Positions 1,973-32,186 of a DNA stretch of 34,355 nucleotides are shown here, piece by piece. The position numbers were made by a program, and so were the translations under genes. Source of the stretch: Cryomorphaceae bacterium BACL7 MAG-120322-bin74 (lineage in GTDB: Bacteria > Bacteroidota > Bacteroidia > Flavobacteriales > Schleiferiaceae); NCBI GenBank assembly GCA_001438205.1, contig LICG01000015.1:1-34355 (forward strand), written 5' to 3'. A model generated the notes under the pieces. The model did no database searches and had not been told where the DNA came from. It worked only from the letters and a program-made list of their open reading frames with translations. Position 1 is the first letter of the stretch. Every line of letters begins with the position of its first letter.

Positions 1973-2000
1973 CACTTTTACGTTTTCAAATCTAACTTTC
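1967..2000 (+). promoter_or_regulatory. Candidate promoter of the GEVED/FnIII gene (TTG-N23-TAACTTTC)
   Basis: TTG at 1967-1969 lies 23 bases before TAACTTTC (1993-2000), which has one mismatch to TAnnTTTG. The box ends only 6 bases before the ATG at 2007, so the leader would be almost absent. Confidence 0.4.
1987..1994 (-). promoter_or_regulatory. -7 box TAGATTTG for the Big_5 lipoprotein gene
   Basis: On the minus strand this reads TAGATTTG, a full match to the Bacteroidota TAnnTTTG box, 14 bases before the ATG at 1972. No TTG is found 17-23 bases upstream. It shares the TA at 1993-1994 with the opposing box of the plus-strand gene. Confidence 0.5.
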
Positions 2001-2006
2001 CCACGC

Positions 2007-5000
2007 ATGAAACGAATGTACGCACTTCTAGTCCTCTTGTTTAGCGCCACTTTAAGTATACAAGCGCAAACGTATTGTACCACCAGTTTATATACCACCG
2101 GCTGTGCGTTTGGTGACTATATAGACAATGTGTCCCTAAATAACGTCAATCAGACAGCCACAGGCTGTTCTACAGGCGGGTATGCGGATTACACCACGGA
2201 TACCGTGCTGGTTCAACAAACAGCACAACTCTCGTTGGGCGTAACCGCGGGGTATTCAAGTCAGTGGTTTGCGATATGGGTGGATGCCAATAATGACGGC
2301 GACTTTGATGACGCTGGAGAGCATCTCTGGAGCTCCTCAGTGGCAGGTCCAGCTGCAGGTGTAGTATATTCAAACACCATCGTCATTCCGGGCACACTAA
2401 GTACAGGGAATCACCGCATGCGCCTTCGCGGCAAATGGAGTGGCACGGCTTTGTTAGCCACGGAGTCATGTACGTCCTTCACGTATGGAGAAGTACATGA
2501 CTACACCGTGAATGTAGCCCCTCCTCCCGCCTGCCCCCAGCCTTATTATTTAATTGCAGGGGGTGCAACCTCTAACACAGCTACTTTCTCCTATACCTCA
2601 ACAGGTTCAACTTTTGAAGTGGAGTATGGTCCTGCAGGATTTACGCCAGGAACTGGAACAAGTGTAACCGTTTCGGGGACAACGGCTTCCATCACGGGTC
2701 TTACTGCGAATACATGCTATGAGTTTTATGTTCGCCAAAACTGCTCTACTGCAGGCAATGGTTACTCCTATTGGAGCGGACCTATCGAGATTTGCACACC
2801 CTGCGTAACGCAATCCTTGCCAGTGACAGAGGACTTTACCAATTGGCCGCCGAGCTGTTTCTTCCTTACGGGCGGAAACCAGCAATGGACTAGCTCGGGC
2901 ACGGGTGCAGCATTAGCAGCGCTAGGTTCTACTTGGGGCTCAGGAGGAACAGGTTATATGACCACCGCACCTATCAACTTAAATGCCCTTTCGCGCATCA
3001 AATTTAAGTGGTCACACTTGGCCTACGCCTGGGCAAGTGAACGTATGGTCTTGGCTGCACGCATCTCCGGAACGACGACTTGGGATACTTTGTGGGACGT
3101 TGAGGGAGCCAATTTTGATTCTCAAGATGGCGCCACGTGGAATGCGCCTGGAACCTTTGTGCAAGAAACGTTAAACCTTGACTCTGCTACCTACTATAAT
3201 CAAATCGCAGAATTCCGATGGATCGGATTCTCGAATTGGGGAAACAATGCTTGGGTAGACGACATCAATATTGAACAGCAACCCTCTTGCCCAGAGCCAA
3301 CAGGTTTGGGTCTCAGCAGCGTGAGTGATACAAGTGCAAGCCTCAATTGGGTGAGTGCGGGATCCTCCTTTGTGATCGAATGGGGGCCTGCCGGATTTAC
3401 GCAAGGAACGGGCTTCATGGATACCGCTACTACTTCTAGTTATGTTTTGAATGGCCTATATGGCAATACAAGCTATGACTATTACGTCCTGCGCAACTGT
3501 ACAGGTCAAGGGAATGGCAACAGTGTTTGGGTTGGCCCTTATAGCTTCACGACCCTTTGCTCGCCGTACTTCGCTACACCAGGTTATTACGAAAACTGGG
3601 ATGCCATGACGGCAGGTGATGCGCCTGGTTGTTGGACAATGAAGGCTACTGGGAGCGGAAACACATGGCAAGTATTTTTGCCGCAGACGTGGAATCCTGT
3701 ACCCTATTCAACACCTAACTATCTGATGATATCCACGGCATCAGCCACAAATGTAACCGCCATCTCTCCCATGTTTGGAGACTTACAGGGCAATGGAGGG
3801 CAAATCCGTTTTCGCGCAAACAAGCTGTACAATTGGAGTCCTATTCAATTAGTGGTGGGTACCCTTTCTACTCCGACCAATCTAGCCTCGTTTACAGCGG
3901 TGGATACCCTTGCATTGACAGAGTTCTGGGCTGAGTATACCGTTGCCTTCCCAAGTGTTCCTTCAGGTCATAACCATGTTGGTTTGCGCATCATAGGAGG
4001 CACTTGGTACGATTTAGGTATTGATGATTTCTACTATGAAATTCAACCTTCTTGCTTACCTGCTCAAAACGTATCAGCTAGCCCTTCCACCACCACGGCG
4101 TTGATTTCTTGGGCACATGGAGCCCCTACCACTACGGGGTCTTATGTAGCATGGGGACCTTCAGGGTTTAATCCTGGAACAGGCACCATCCCTAATATGG
4201 TCTTAGCTTCGGGCAATACCTACACGATGACGGGATTGACTTCAGCATCTACCTACACCGTTTGGGTTGCAGATAGCTGTGGCATCAATAACATCGGCCC
4301 ATGGCAAGGTCCAGTGACTTTTACAACATCTTGTTTGGCTGCCGCTATGCCGTATGCGGAAAACTTTGATTTGTCCCCATTGTCATGTTGGGACGAAACG
4401 GGGGGCACCAAAGTATTCCAATCCTATGCCGTAGGGGCGGGTAATTGCATGCGTGGCAACTTCTGGAGTTGGACCTCTGGTAATTGGGCTGAACTGACTT
4501 CACGTCCTGTGACGATTTCAAGCAATGCACAAGTGTCCTTTGACTGGAGCCACCAGTACATGACATTCTACCCGAATGATCAATTGACCTTGTTGGCACG
4601 TCCCGCTGCATCTAGCACCTGGGATACGTTGATTGACTTGAAGGGTCCGAACTTTAATACTACAGGGGCTGGATCTACTGCTCCAGGTACTTTTGTCAAT
4701 GAATTGGCCTATTTACCAAGCTCGTACACAGGTTCTGATGTGATCTTTAAGTTTATAGGTAATTCAGGCTATGGACCCGATGTCTTCTTTGACAATTTCC
4801 TTGTTGAAGAGATTCCTACGTGTCCTGATCCCGTCCCTGTTGCTGGAACAACCGTAACAAACGCAAGTGCGGATGTCTCTTGGACAAGCCCAGGGACGCC
4901 TTTAGGTAGCTGCGTGATGTGGGGACCTGCTGGATTCTACACGGGGACAGGCTCTATTACAGGCACCATTGCCCACAATGTAAGCTCTGCGTATACGATC

Positions 5001-6286: not shown

Positions 6287-6926
6287 ATTGTGCGTACGTT
6301 AAACTCCGCGCATGAATGGTTATGGGCTGCGCCGCCTGTATTGTCCATGCAGCTTCATTTAGCGTAACGCCAGTCGTCCAAGTGTCATCCCACAACTGAA
6401 TGCGAATCCCCGCAGGAAGACCCTGAATCAGAGAGAAGGCCCCGTTTTGATTCAAAAACCTTTGGCTTTTATTTTGCTTGGCTTGGGCTGGACGATGAGC
6501 TTTCACAAGGTTTTTGGTCAAAATAGGGAGGCGCCACACATCAGATAATCCTTTGCAAATCCATTCAGACTGGTTATACCCACGTTCAAAATGACGCCTT
6601 TTGGACAGAGGGATGGGCACGAGTGCATCTACATCGGGTCGGCAGTGGCGTTGCGCATAAAGGGCGCCGAGAAACCGCGCAATGTCTGGGACATGCCCAA
6701 ACTTCACCTGATGCATCAGGTTCTTCACGATTGGGGTATCAAAGTCGAGCCAGGAATACCCCGAGGCACAAGCAGTTACGTTCTCCCAACGTGGAGCAAT
6801 GGCCGCTTCTAGGTGATCTAAACAGGTTGAACATAAAAAATCTTCCGTCGTCTCCAAGCGGCAAACACATGAAATGCAGCCTCTTGGCCATATTTTGTCT
6901 GAAAAAGACCGATAGAAAAAGTACAT
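6285..6926 (-). CDS. comF: ComF family phosphoribosyltransferase-like protein
   Basis: This 213-aa protein has the ComF layout. An N-terminal zinc ribbon (Cys17, Cys20, Cys32, Cys35: CISC and CSTC) is followed by a type I phosphoribosyltransferase fold with the family motif PIPLSKRRHFERGYNQS (about 104-120) and a PRPP loop IQLWDDTWTTGVT (about 176-188). ComF proteins are cytoplasmic and linked to DNA uptake and processing of incoming single strands, though many Bacteroidota carry them without other obvious competence genes nearby. Residue Trp183 in the DDTWTTG loop is unusual for this loop. The start codon overlaps the -7 box of the divergent gene, with only 23 bases between the two start codons. 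Confidence 0.9.
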   Translation of the reverse strand: MYFFYRSFSDKIWPRGCISCVCRLETTEDFLCSTCLDHLEAAIAPRWENVTACASGYSWLDFDTPIVKNLMHQVKFGHVPDIARFLGALYAQRHCRPDVDALVPIPLSKRRHFERGYNQSEWICKGLSDVWRLPILTKNLVKAHRPAQAKQNKSQRFLNQNGAFSLIQGLPAGIRIQLWDDTWTTGVTLNEAAWTIQAAQPITIHARSLTYAQ

Positions 6927-6929
6927 TTG
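6895..6929 (+). promoter_or_regulatory. Promoter for the coiled-coil / exonuclease III / OmpA operon (TTG-N24-TACATTTG)
   Basis: TACATTTG (6922-6929) fully matches TAnnTTTG, with TTG at 6895-6897, 24 bases upstream (slightly long). The ATG follows 20 bases after the box. The box contains the comF start codon (CAT at 6924-6926). Confidence 0.55.
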
Positions 6930-6933
6930 TGGT

Positions 6934-6941
6934 CAAATATG
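6934..6941 (-). promoter_or_regulatory. Candidate -7 box CATATTTG for comF
   Basis: The minus strand reads CATATTTG, one mismatch from TAnnTTTG, 7 bases before the comF ATG. It lies between the opposing TACATTTG box and the ATG of the plus-strand gene, so the two promoters are interlocked. Confidence 0.35.
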
Positions 6942-7834: not shown

Positions 7835-8608
7835 ATGCGCATCCTTAGCCTGAATGGAAATGGCATTCGGGCCTGTTTAAAAAAAGGGTTGGTCCGCTGG
7901 TGGGAAAGCACTGATGCGGACCTTCTCCTTTTTCAAGAGGTCCGTCATGATGATGCGGCGTTCATAGCTGCCTCTTTTCCGGACTGCTGGACCAGCTTGC
8001 ATACGGCTGAAAAGAAAGGCTATTCAGGTGTGGCGATTATCGCTAAAACGCCCCCCATTCGTGTGGTTCATGGTATGAATAGGCCTGAATTTGACCTAGA
8101 AGGGCGTGTTATGCGGGTGGACTATCCGGGCGTAACCTTGTTGAATGTGTATTTTCCATCGGGCGCCTCCAAGCCAGAACGACAAGCGGTTAAACTTGCG
8201 TTTTTAGATGCTTTTCGCCAATACCTAACCGAGGTGGAAAGAGAAGTGCCGCAGGTCATTGTAGGTGCTGACTGGAACATGTGCCATACGCCCCTTGACA
8301 TTCACAATCCCATTCGCTTAGAGGGTGTGCCTGGCTTTAGTGCGCCCGAAAGAGCTTGGCTTGACGCCCTAGAAGAAGCTCATTGGCGGGATGCGTTTCG
8401 CCTGTTCCATTCAGGAGGCGATCAATACACATGGTGGAGCCTTCAGTCGCGTTCCCGCGAAAGAAATATAGGATGGCGCATCGATGGTTTTTGGTTGAGC
8501 CCCGCGGCAGTGCAGGGCGCCAAGCGATGTATACACCTTAACCAGGCCTACCTTTCGGATCATTGCCCCGTGCTTTTGGAATGGGATTTGCCGACTACCT
8601 TTGAATAA
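7835..8608 (+). CDS. xth: Exodeoxyribonuclease III / AP endonuclease
   Basis: This is a 257-aa member of the Mg-dependent exonuclease III family, acting in base excision repair by cutting 5' of abasic sites and trimming 3' ends. The active-site blocks are all visible: Asn7 in LNGNGIRA, the metal-binding Glu in LLLFQEVRHD, Tyr in LLNVYFPSG, Asp and Asn in GADWNMCH, WRIDGFW, and the C-terminal Asp-His pair in LSDHCPVLLEWD. The first block has Gly where most members have Val (NVNGIRA). It starts 6 bases after the coiled-coil gene and ends 16 bases before the OmpA lipoprotein start, so the three are probably cotranscribed. Confidence 0.93.
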   Translation: MRILSLNGNGIRACLKKGLVRWWESTDADLLLFQEVRHDDAAFIAASFPDCWTSLHTAEKKGYSGVAIIAKTPPIRVVHGMNRPEFDLEGRVMRVDYPGVTLLNVYFPSGASKPERQAVKLAFLDAFRQYLTEVEREVPQVIVGADWNMCHTPLDIHNPIRLEGVPGFSAPERAWLDALEEAHWRDAFRLFHSGGDQYTWWSLQSRSRERNIGWRIDGFWLSPAAVQGAKRCIHLNQAYLSDHCPVLLEWDLPTTFE

Positions 8609-11985: not shown

Positions 11986-12336
11986 TTAGTGTAAGCGGTT
12001 GCTAGATTCGTCTGGGAAAAGTACGACAGGCTGAAAGGTTTTGGCCTCTTCAGGCGTCATGGAAGCGTAGGAAATAATGATAATCTTATCCTCTTTTTGC
12101 ACTTTGCGCGCCGCAGGCCCATTCAAGGTGATCTCTCCACTATTTGCTTCTCCATAAATCACATAAGTGTCCAATCGTTCTCCGTTGTTGATGTTGACGA
12201 TGCTGACCTTTTGCCCTTCTACAAGCTTTGCGGCTTCCGCGAGGGAACGGTCAATCGTGATGGATCCGATATAATGGAGATCCGCCCCTGTAACCCGTAC
12301 GCGGTGGATTTTACTGTAAAGGACTTCGATTGTCAT
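11986..12336 (-). CDS. panD: Aspartate 1-decarboxylase
   Basis: This 116-aa pyruvoyl enzyme converts L-aspartate to beta-alanine for pantothenate synthesis. The proenzyme self-cleaves between Gly24 and Ser25 (YIGSITID), with Ser25 becoming the pyruvoyl group. The residues known from the E. coli enzyme are all at canonical positions: Lys9, Tyr22, Arg54, Tyr58, Asn72. The start [12 protein letters not shown] at 12336 reproduces that numbering exactly, against an in-frame TTG three codons upstream. The gene lies 78 bases after panC, which makes the beta-alanine-using partner, and has its own full -7 box 6 bases before the ATG. Confidence 0.96.
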
Positions 12337-12342
12337 GGGGCG

Positions 12343-12350
12343 CAAAAGTA
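12343..12350 (-). promoter_or_regulatory. -7 box TACTTTTG directly before panD
   Basis: The minus strand reads TACTTTTG, a full TAnnTTTG match, then CGCCCC and the panD ATG. No TTG is found 17-23 bases upstream. If used, the mRNA would start within about 3 bases of the ATG, giving panD-flippase-radA transcription independent of panC. Confidence 0.5.
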
Positions 12351-13364: not shown

Positions 13365-13372
13365 TACCTTTG
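13365..13372 (+). promoter_or_regulatory. -7 box TACCTTTG directly before the starch-synthase-like gene
   Basis: TACCTTTG is a full match to TAnnTTTG, with only CAGCA between it and the ATG at 13378. No TTG is visible at the expected upstream distance. A start 4-7 bases after the box would fall at, or within a few bases of, the ATG. Confidence 0.55.
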
Positions 13373-13377
13373 CAGCA

Positions 13378-14181
13378 ATGGCGAAACGACGCATCCTCTA
13401 CATCTCACATGAGATTAAACCCTACTTCCCGGACAATATACTGTCCAAAGCGGGGTTAGCTTTTCCAAAGAAAATGAACGACCAAGGACACGAAATCCGT
13501 GTCTTTATGCCACGCTTTGGCGCCATCAATGAGCGACGTCACCAACTTCATGAGGTGATTCGTTTAAGTGGTATAAATGTGGTTATCAATGACTTAGATC
13601 AGCCATTGATTATCAAAGTGGCCTCTGTTCCTGGCGTTAGAATTCAAGTCTATTTCATTGACAATGAAGACTTTTTTAAGCGAAAAGGCACGTGGGAAGA
13701 CAAGGATGGAAAGTTCTATAAAGACAATGGTGAGCGGAGTTTATTTTTCTGCAAAAGCGTCATCGAGACGATTAAAAAATTAGGTTGGCAGCCTGATGTT
13801 GTGCACTTTATGGGGTGGATGAGTACGGCCATGCCCCTTTATATCCGTCAATTTAATGCGGAGGACCCTCACTTTAAGGATGCCAAGTTGGTGTACAGCC
13901 TATTTGGGGATGGATTTGAAGGCCACTTAGATGATGGTCTATATCGCGGCATGGAGTTTGACGGAGTGAAGGACATGGAGCCTTTCAAAACACCCAGTAC
14001 AGACAATCTTTATGCAGGGGCTGTTTCACATGTGGATGCGGTTCTTCAGATGTCTTCGGATGTGCCACAAGCACAGCTGGATGCCGCGACTGCAGCGGGT
14101 GTGCCTATCCATGATGGCACAGCGTATTTGACAGAGCCAGGGGGCCTAAATTCTTTCTACGACTCACTTTTTGCCGAATAA
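13378..14181 (+). CDS. Glycogen/starch synthase N-terminal-domain protein
   Basis: This 267-aa protein resembles the N-terminal catalytic half of GT5 glycogen synthase (GlgA): RILYISHEIKPYFPDNILSKAGLAFPKKM corresponds in spacing to the GlgA opening with its KxGGL nucleotide-sugar motif, here reduced to KAGLAF, and PDVVHFMGWMSTAMPLYI corresponds to the GlgA region after the first helices. It stops before the second Rossmann domain, which in full GlgA (~480 aa) binds ADP-glucose. A standalone half-synthase may be inactive or regulatory; that is inference. I recall the order of this gene, a DUF4270 gene and glmS as common in Bacteroidota, which argues against a decayed gene. The start at 13378 follows the -7 box. 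Confidence 0.85.
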   Translation: MAKRRILYISHEIKPYFPDNILSKAGLAFPKKMNDQGHEIRVFMPRFGAINERRHQLHEVIRLSGINVVINDLDQPLIIKVASVPGVRIQVYFIDNEDFFKRKGTWEDKDGKFYKDNGERSLFFCKSVIETIKKLGWQPDVVHFMGWMSTAMPLYIRQFNAEDPHFKDAKLVYSLFGDGFEGHLDDGLYRGMEFDGVKDMEPFKTPSTDNLYAGAVSHVDAVLQMSSDVPQAQLDAATAAGVPIHDGTAYLTEPGGLNSFYDSLFAE

Positions 14182-20448: not shown

Positions 20449-20477
20449 CGAAAGTACAGGCACTAAGACGCCAACAA
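20449..20477 (-). promoter_or_regulatory. Promoter of the TonB receptor gene (TTG-N18-TACTTTCG)
   Basis: On the minus strand, TTG (20477-20475) is followed after 18 bases by TACTTTCG (20456-20449), one mismatch to TAnnTTTG, then CGAC and the ATG. The leader would be about one base. Confidence 0.5.
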
Positions 20478-22693: not shown

Positions 22694-22701
22694 TATGTTT
22701 G
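22694..22701 (+). promoter_or_regulatory. -7 box TATGTTTG for tRNA-Leu
   Basis: TATGTTTG fully matches TAnnTTTG and ends 12 bases before the first tRNA base. No TTG stands at the expected upstream distance. It is 13 bases from the divergent prs box. Confidence 0.5.
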
Positions 22702-22713
22702 CGATCCACAATT

Positions 22714-22794
22714 GCCCAGGTGGCGGAATTGGTAGACGCGCACGACTCAAACTCGTGTTCCCCTGGAGTGCGGGTTCGATTCCCGCCCTGGGCA
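22714..22794 (+). tRNA. tRNA-Leu (anticodon CAA)
   Basis: This is a class II tRNA. The acceptor arms GCCCAGG (22714-22720) and CCTGGGC (22787-22793) pair fully. The D arm GCGGAATTGGTAGACGC is typical of Leu. The anticodon stem CACGA/TCGTG encloses loop CTCAAAC, with CAA at 22748-22750, reading UUG. A long variable arm precedes the T arm GCGGG-TTCGATT-CCCGC. The discriminator is A; the CCA end is not encoded. A dCMP deaminase gene starts 28 bases downstream with no terminator or promoter box seen between. Confidence 0.97.
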
Positions 22795-22822
22795 CTTACT
22801 TCAAATAGTGCTCGCAACCTCA

Positions 22823-25786: not shown

Positions 25787-25817
25787 TTGTTGAGTTGGCT
25801 ACAAAGGTAGACCTTTG
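25787..25817 (+). promoter_or_regulatory. Promoter of the DUF3109 gene (TTG-N20-GACCTTTG)
   Basis: TTG at 25787-25789 is 20 bases before GACCTTTG (25810-25817), one mismatch to TAnnTTTG. Only GAGA separates the box from the ATG at 25822, so the mRNA would be nearly leaderless. Confidence 0.5.
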
Positions 25818-30456: not shown

Positions 30457-30464
30457 TACCTTCG
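30457..30464 (+). promoter_or_regulatory. Candidate -7 box TACCTTCG for the TerB/J-domain gene
   Basis: TACCTTCG has one mismatch to TAnnTTTG and ends 6 bases before the ATG at 30471. A TTTG at 30429-30432 is 24 bases upstream, slightly long. Confidence 0.35.
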
Positions 30465-32178: not shown

Positions 32179-32186
32179 TACCTTTA
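32179..32186 (+). promoter_or_regulatory. Candidate -7 box TACCTTTA before dnaG
   Basis: TACCTTTA has one mismatch to TAnnTTTG, followed by GGGG and the dnaG ATG. No TTG stands 17-23 bases upstream. It could give dnaG an internal, nearly leaderless transcript. Confidence 0.3.

Follow-up and report, generated by a model that had tools for sequence, protein, structure and literature searches.

Promoter boxes next to start codons point to frequent leaderless transcription in a lineage of Bacteroidota

The sigma-ABfr promoter of Flavobacterium johnsoniae carries a -7 box, TAnnTTTG, revised to TAHHTTTG, as G is almost absent at both free positions (PMC6847099). Many transcription starts are reported to lie 4 or 5 bases after this box, and 87% of predicted leaders are longer than 10 nt, with an average of 33 nt (PMC6847099). 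Leaderless mRNAs are put at 5.5% in F. psychrophilum (PMC9723704), and about 3.7% of 5' untranslated regions in B. thetaiotaomicron are under 10 nt (PMC7366714); across the transcription start maps of these three Bacteroidota, leaderless mRNAs are a minority (PMC6847099, PMC7366714, PMC9723704). The leaderless genes of Actinobacteria and Deinococcus-Thermus, >20% of genes, have a box about 10 to 12 bases before the start codon, and many Bacteroidetes genes belong to the "atypical" class of the same survey (PMC3160421). One study cites earlier reports of a high leaderless fraction in Bacteroidetes (PMC5397173), and the results of another are described as agreeing with leaderless mRNA reported for some Flavobacteriia that lack CCUCC (PMC10783764). 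A leaderless-rich Bacteroidota genome established by transcript mapping was not reported in the literature that we searched, mainly by title and abstract.

Here we describe a lineage with the same box as F. johnsoniae and the same ban on G, in which, unlike in F. johnsoniae, roughly one in three exact-box promoters is positioned on the ATG. The box is close to the start codon, as is the -10 type box of Actinobacteria and Deinococcus-Thermus, which has different letters (TANNNT; PMC3160421). Relative to F. psychrophilum and B. thetaiotaomicron, which share the phylum and the box, leaderless mRNAs are estimated from sequence to be about five times commoner, with wide limits. The FCB class of GeneMarkS-2 and StartLink likewise has start signals without Shine-Dalgarno sites, but these are described as AT-rich non-canonical ribosome-binding sites (PMC9581028), unlike the leaderless transcription proposed here. 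Leaderless transcription is already known; its scale, the spacing rule and the switching seen in this lineage are features for which we found no report in the literature searched.

The genome comprises 1.74 Mb in 77 contigs and is 97% complete. The window, by which we mean the whole stretch of 34,355 nt that was analysed, covers positions 1-34355 of contig C15. Among named matches of glmS, that of Flavobacteriales bacterium UBA3442 is the nearest, with 71% protein identity, records of the genome itself possibly being excluded. The original prediction placed a TAnnTTTG box, exact or with one mismatch, 4 to 7 bases before the ATG of eight window genes and proposed very short leaders for them. 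All eight boxes were located, with letters and spacings as described (Table 1), and a ninth candidate precedes the minus-strand gene 788-2008. Two of the nine are exact, those of panD and the starch-synthase-like gene. The farther boxes claimed for five additional genes were also recovered, as exact boxes 18 to 45 bases ahead of starts 6950, 8625, 22651, 23518 and 25783 (the last gene we take to be MarC-like), and the one claimed for the tRNA is exact as well. An exact box, TAGGTTTG, lies 37 bases ahead of the radA start. The labels GEVED, comF, TonB, DUF3109 and TerB/J are those of the original prediction. NCBIfam confirmed panD and dnaG, the product of the latter matching TIGR01391 with residue 4 on profile position 2, and returned no match for the putative TonB receptor gene.

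Table 1. Boxes and selected genes in the window
Feature	Position	Strand	Context
Box TAACTTTC (one mismatch)	1993..2000	+	6 bases before ATG 2007, GEVED/FnIII gene
Box TACATTCG (one mismatch)	2013..2020	-	4 bases before candidate ATG 2008; start uncertain
Box TACATTTG, exact	6922..6929	+	20 bases before ATG 6950; leadered control
Box-like CATATTTG	6934..6941	-	7 bases before comF ATG 6926; weak
Box TACCTTTG, exact	8596..8603	+	21 bases before ATG 8625; leadered here
panD, aspartate 1-decarboxylase	11986..12336	-	TIGR00223, residues 1-111 on profile 1-111
Box TACTTTTG, exact	12343..12350	-	6 bases before panD ATG 12336; predicted leader 1-2 nt
Box TACCTTTG, exact	13365..13372	+	5 bases before ATG 13378, starch-synthase-like; predicted leaderless
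Starch-synthase-like protein, 267 aa	13378..14181	+	NCBIfam starch/glycogen synthase matches below cut-offs
Box TACTTTCG (one mismatch)	20449..20456	-	4 bases before ATG 20444, putative TonB receptor
Box TATGTTTG	22694..22701	+	12 bases ahead of tRNA-Leu (22714-22795)
Box TACCTTTG, exact	25802..25809	-	18 bases before ATG 25783; leadered
Box GACCTTTG (one mismatch)	25810..25817	+	4 bases before ATG 25822, putative DUF3109 gene
Box TACCTTCG (one mismatch)	30457..30464	+	6 bases before ATG 30471, putative TerB/J gene
Box TACCTTTA (one mismatch)	32179..32186	+	4 bases before dnaG ATG 32191

The claim that the boxes cluster beyond chance holds for their positions and fails for their number. The window contains 29 exact boxes, compared with 22.5 in dinucleotide shuffles, at least 29 being reached in 13 of 100 shuffles; this total is ordinary, so the chance argument is valid for positions only. 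At spacings of 4 to 7, boxes with no more than one mismatch precede 9 of the 28 window genes, whereas the shuffles have a mean of 0.95 and a maximum of 6 (n = 5000). The remaining four-base spacing classes of the real sequence hold 0 to 3 each, but 5 at 20-23. The 28 starts were set by hand with the hypothesis known, and start 2008 was taken after its box had been seen; leaving it out gives 8 of 27. In the 434-kb test described below, starts were called without use of the box.

At 2006-2009 of the window the sequence is CATG, in which divergent ATGs overlap, with a one-mismatch box nearby on the side of each (TAACTTTC at spacing 6 and TACATTCG at spacing 4). Each promoter would then lie inside the coding sequence of the opposite gene, provided that both starts are correct; the minus-strand start is uncertain. 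At 25802-25817 the divergent boxes TACCTTTG (minus) and GACCTTTG (plus) stand back to back with zero bases between them, and the two promoters may therefore exclude each other.

The near-ATG boxes are a real, lineage-wide feature that reaches far past the window. Genome-wide, TANNTTTG-N3-6-ATG occurs 161 times, against 59 for the reversed pattern and 64 for spacing 9-12, and TANNTTTG-N2-8-ATG occurs 210 times against 94 reversed. Gene-level analysis used 434 kb, about a quarter of the genome, made up of the window and 20 stretches taken from contigs C1-C9. A total of 349 genes were called. Of these, 191 counted as lead genes, being divergent, lying at an edge, or following a same-strand gene at a distance of 30 bases or more. 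Only ATGs were scored as candidates, and all of them up to 60 bases downstream of the called start were included, which treats near and far spacings equally; the counts are of box-ATG pairs, and a gene with two candidate ATGs may count twice. Lead genes have 25 exact boxes at spacing 4-6, 1 at 7-13 and 58 at 14-60. Enrichment at 4 to 7 bases across the genome, on which the original prediction had staked itself, is thus found. With the same script, 480 kb of a Flavobacterium, G020 (glmS DNA 90% identical to F. hibisci), gave 7, 4 and 112 in these spacing classes for 295 lead genes (25/58 against 7/112, Fisher p 7e-6). After background correction, the leaderless share of exact-box promoters is estimated at 0.32 (bootstrap 0.22-0.46) here, or about one third, and at 0.06 (0.003-0.12) in the Flavobacterium; this 6% agrees with the F. 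psychrophilum measurement of 5.5%, which supports the method.

When the 191 called lead starts are taken with any codon, spacing 4-6 holds 23 exact boxes and 48 with up to one mismatch, compared with 0.24 (maximum 2) and 5.2 (maximum 15) in shuffles; called ATGs alone have 20 exact boxes. One-mismatch boxes number 22 at spacing 4, against a mean of 3.6 per spacing at 7-13. A hand-combined estimate predicts about 43 leaderless genes in the sample, or 22% of its 191 lead genes. The boxes thus keep a fixed short distance, with intermediate spacings seemingly avoided, panD at 6-8 in the genus being the exception. The box-to-ATG spacing rule suggested in the original prediction is supported by the scarcity of boxes at 7-13 in the genome, though panD departs from it in the genus. 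Loci pooled from sister genomes (genusGC and genusAT) have 6 exact boxes at 7 alongside the 12 at 4-6, and repeated orthologs together with panD at 7-8 deprive these pools of a usable share.

Misplaced start codons could also bring boxes close to called starts, if the true start were a later ATG and leaders were short. The start caller is crude, with window errors at radA and the starch-synthase-like gene and a non-ATG start within comF, and some of the narrowest gaps between divergent genes are negative, with an overlap that may in a few cases reflect start errors. Called starts are ATG in 338 of 349 genes. Random start error, however, has no reason to put boxes at 4-6, and nearly all near-box proteins whose start can be judged begin where expected. 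We scanned 30 such proteins (24 of 31 with exact boxes and 6 of 25 with strict one-mismatch boxes), of which 16 match a named-protein model that can judge the start, 9 match broad or partial models only and 5 match none. Fifteen of the 16 start no more than about eight residues from where the profile itself begins: PanD, QueA, RuvB, DnaX, LigA, BamD, PurQ, TyrS, Dxs, ValS, DnaG, RluF, TrpS, FabG and Xth. TrhO, with 32 residues ahead of its profile match (aligned from residue 33), speaks for misplacement. The starch-synthase-like protein matches from residue 1 in all 21 of the 22 genus genomes that have one, and most named orthologs share the same Met. We regard misplaced starts as a very improbable account of the near boxes.

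Since starts in F. johnsoniae fall 4 to 5 bases past the box, a spacing of 4-5 would put +1 at the A of the ATG, and a spacing of 6-7 would give leaders of 1 to 3 bases. The TAnnTTTG box is enriched upstream of genes, as expected of Bacteroidota sigma-A promoters, and the near boxes have sigma-specific letters. G is found once among the 62 free positions of the 31 exact near-ATG boxes (binomial p 2.6e-6), positions that had no role in selecting these boxes; its frequencies at the two positions are 0.08 and 0.08 in leadered boxes and 0.22 and 0.23 within genes. In one-mismatch boxes at spacing 4 (n = 22), the mismatch is at -12 (3), -6 (8) or -5 (11), with -11, -8 and -7 intact in all 22, whereas at spacings 8-39 mismatches are seen at every position. 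The -33 TTTG element gives no clear TTG peak in 31 leaderless and 39 leadered upstream regions; this element is much less evident in F. johnsoniae also (PMC6847099). Past the ATG, no difference in folding was detected between leaderless genes and leadered or operon genes (MWU p 0.54 and 0.33), and the codon and base-composition features of near-box genes showed no difference from those of others.

The tight spacing to the ATG, in a phylum without Shine-Dalgarno sites, might instead denote an RNA element for translation that is no promoter. We give this idea almost no credence, as the box with its H-H rule is present at 14-60 bases too, it is the mapped -7 element in relatives (PMC6847099), and orthologs of a single gene carry it at 5 or at 33-34 bases. 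This switching is seen in the starch-synthase-like gene, whose 20 genus orthologs have box TACCTTTG at 5 in 10 cases and at 33-34 in 9, with an exact box at 49 in G018. Its 69 named orthologs have an exact box only at 22-47 (59) or at 4 (1), a one-mismatch near box (2) or none (7). Gene 8625 differs between the genus groups in the opposite direction. Five of its 15 orthologs, all close relatives, have an exact box at 21, seven have a box at 4 (TACCTTCG in six and TAACTTTG in G018), and three AT-rich orthologs have one-mismatch boxes at 20-22. Gene 8625 is thus predicted to be leadered here and, judged by the box, leaderless in seven genus members, in six of which (TACCTTCG) the match runs from residue 20-21 and the ATG is extrapolated. 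A protein tree of the starch-synthase-like gene (own row, 20 genus rows and 7 of the 8 outgroups picked) places the outgroups beside AT-rich genus members, on a branch 1.58 long, and requires three changes; because of this, we do not claim the leaderless state as derived for this gene.

Near boxes are conserved in several genes. Among 63 named panD orthologs, an exact box lies at 4-5 in 47 (at exactly 4 in 45), a one-mismatch box is near in 4, a box is only farther away in 3, and 9 have none; in 17 genus orthologs it lies at 6-7 (11) or at 8 (4) or has one mismatch near the start (2). panD is mostly only 12-15 bases behind a same-strand gene. For the DUF3109 gene, an exact box lies at 4 in all four of the named orthologs found, a closely related set (three Polaribacter and one Flavobacteriaceae), and the putative TonB gene has TAATTTCG or TAAATTCG at 4 in all three orthologs found. 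For GEVED, the minus-strand gene 788-2008, DUF3109, TerB/J and dnaG, the genus pieces compared contained no ortholog. Three genes were used as negatives. An exact near box is present in 0 of 79 named and 0 of 16 genus glmS orthologs (one-mismatch, 4 and 1), 0 of 54 and 0 of 15 for radA (one-mismatch, 3 and 4), and 0 of 7 and 1 of 7 for panC.

The comF box is the least supported of the eight in the original prediction, and is doubtful. The box-like sequence has the wrong letter at -12, and none of the 11 genus orthologs compared has an exact near box, six having one with one mismatch and five having none. The comF ATG (6926-6924) falls within the -7 box of gene 6950, which is divergent. Where the two overlap, all 11 genus orthologs compared read CAAATGTAC, and the box of gene 6950 is found at 17-22 in 14 of 14 genus orthologs compared.

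A further reading accepts the near boxes as real but secondary promoters, with the main transcripts starting upstream and their leaders translated through an A-rich, Kozak-like context. The reported mRNAs of F. johnsoniae, F. psychrophilum and B. thetaiotaomicron, which are mostly leadered, favor it, and some near-box genes close behind a same-strand gene, where 5 exact boxes at 4-6 occur among 158 non-lead genes, are probably read through. Divergent pairs, however, are often too close for separate leaders. The median gap between divergent start codons is 51.5 bp (54 pairs, 28 under 60 bp), compared with 192 bp in the Flavobacterium G020 (42 pairs, 1 under 60). At locus L013:7312/7337, the 24 bp between divergent starts are taken up by a pair of one-mismatch boxes, each with its 4-base spacer. 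We consider it unlikely that the near boxes are secondary. For near-box genes, the leader predicted from the box is 0-3 nt, which would be too short for an upstream A-rich context.

The explanation that we favor, and hold to be probably right, is that sigma-A promoters yield leaderless mRNAs unusually often for the phylum. The boxes would represent -7 elements from housekeeping promoters of the ordinary Bacteroidota type; in this lineage many of them lie within 4-6 bases of the ATG. RNA polymerase would start on the A of the start codon or 1-2 bases earlier, giving a leaderless mRNA, and the ribosome may itself select the AUG at the 5' end, in a manner analogous to the leaderless initiation known to involve IF2 and fMet-tRNA. 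The genome seems to avoid leaders of about 2-9 nt, and leaders would be kept where they bear information, as at rpsU, which combines a box spacing of 29 bases with a strong Shine-Dalgarno sequence (2 of 8 loci resolved: G000, with AGAGGAGGTGA, and G324, with AAGGAGGTGA). bS21 was found in 21 of 22 genus genomes. With bS21 and the rpsU Shine-Dalgarno sequence kept, the ribosome seems no different in kind from that usual in Bacteroidota; both are also features of the F. johnsoniae-type ribosome with its hidden anti-Shine-Dalgarno sequence. The short leaders of the original prediction are supported by the enrichment and spacing of the near boxes, comF being poorly supported, whereas leaderlessness itself, the position of the transcription start and the mode of ribosome recruitment are what we infer from them.

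To place the genome among its relatives, near-box counts were compared across the genus and phylum. The N3-6 / N9-12 ratio in 19 genus genomes ranges from 1.09 to 5.0 and is >2 in 14. It is <1.5 in five AT-rich ones, G009, G011, G013, G015 and G016 (G+C 34-37% in pieces of four of them, G011 being grouped by its high background only). The near-box excess is 8-35 per Mb in these five and 47-69 in the others. It rises with G+C (Spearman 0.78, 18 genomes), a correlation that may be partly technical, as the background varies with G+C. Measured on pieces, G+C in the genus (G000-G018) spans roughly 34% to 60%. Twelve genomes from other families of the order have N3-6 / N9-12 ratios of 0.75-1.42.

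The phylum survey covered 296 genomes, of which 259 were ranked, 37 with <30 matches in both patterns together being dropped. The median N4-5 / N9-10 ratio is 0.96, whereas the present genome has 3.0, 8th of 259, and its excess of 39 per Mb is 2nd of 259. In 17 genomes of the genus Flavobacterium (g3) the ratio is 0.84-1.25. The seven genomes ranked above by ratio are six from family f35 plus G143, which suggests, from counts alone, that the near-box excess arose separately within the phylum. f35 is a family outside the class of the window with the highest spacing-4-5 ratios of the survey. Among its nine genomes (G129, G133, G141, G164, G172, G260, G055, G087 and G114), seven have ratios of 2.7-4.9, with G087 at 2.0 and G114 at 1.8. 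Families elsewhere in the phylum have similar near-box excesses, as seen in f35, G143 and G069. At gene level G069, G172 and G028 have 6, 3 and 5 exact near boxes and shares of 0.32, 0.45 and 0.27, from samples so small as to be unreliable. G028 stands at 374 vs 160 by the reversed control, yet at 374 vs 263 by spacing 9-12; because the reversed-pattern control ranks families differently, we relied on the spacing control.

A broader reading is that leaderless initiation is a main route for housekeeping genes of this Flavobacteriales genus with its small genomes, among them those for ValS, TyrS, TrpS, DnaX, LigA, RuvB, PurQ, BamD and DnaG, and that Bacteroidota, whose AUGs are read without Shine-Dalgarno pairing, have moved repeatedly to leaderless mRNA; we judge its chances to be even. 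If it is true, divergent genes can share as little as 24 bp, with promoters fused to starts. The box-to-ATG rule could also aid the correction of start codons in similar environmental genomes. With bS21 and the rpsU Shine-Dalgarno sequence in place, a lineage departing from the pattern of its phylum offers a natural experiment on how ribosomes blind to Shine-Dalgarno sites find the AUG, and the question can be tested directly with orthologs that carry the same box at either 5 or 33-34 bases.
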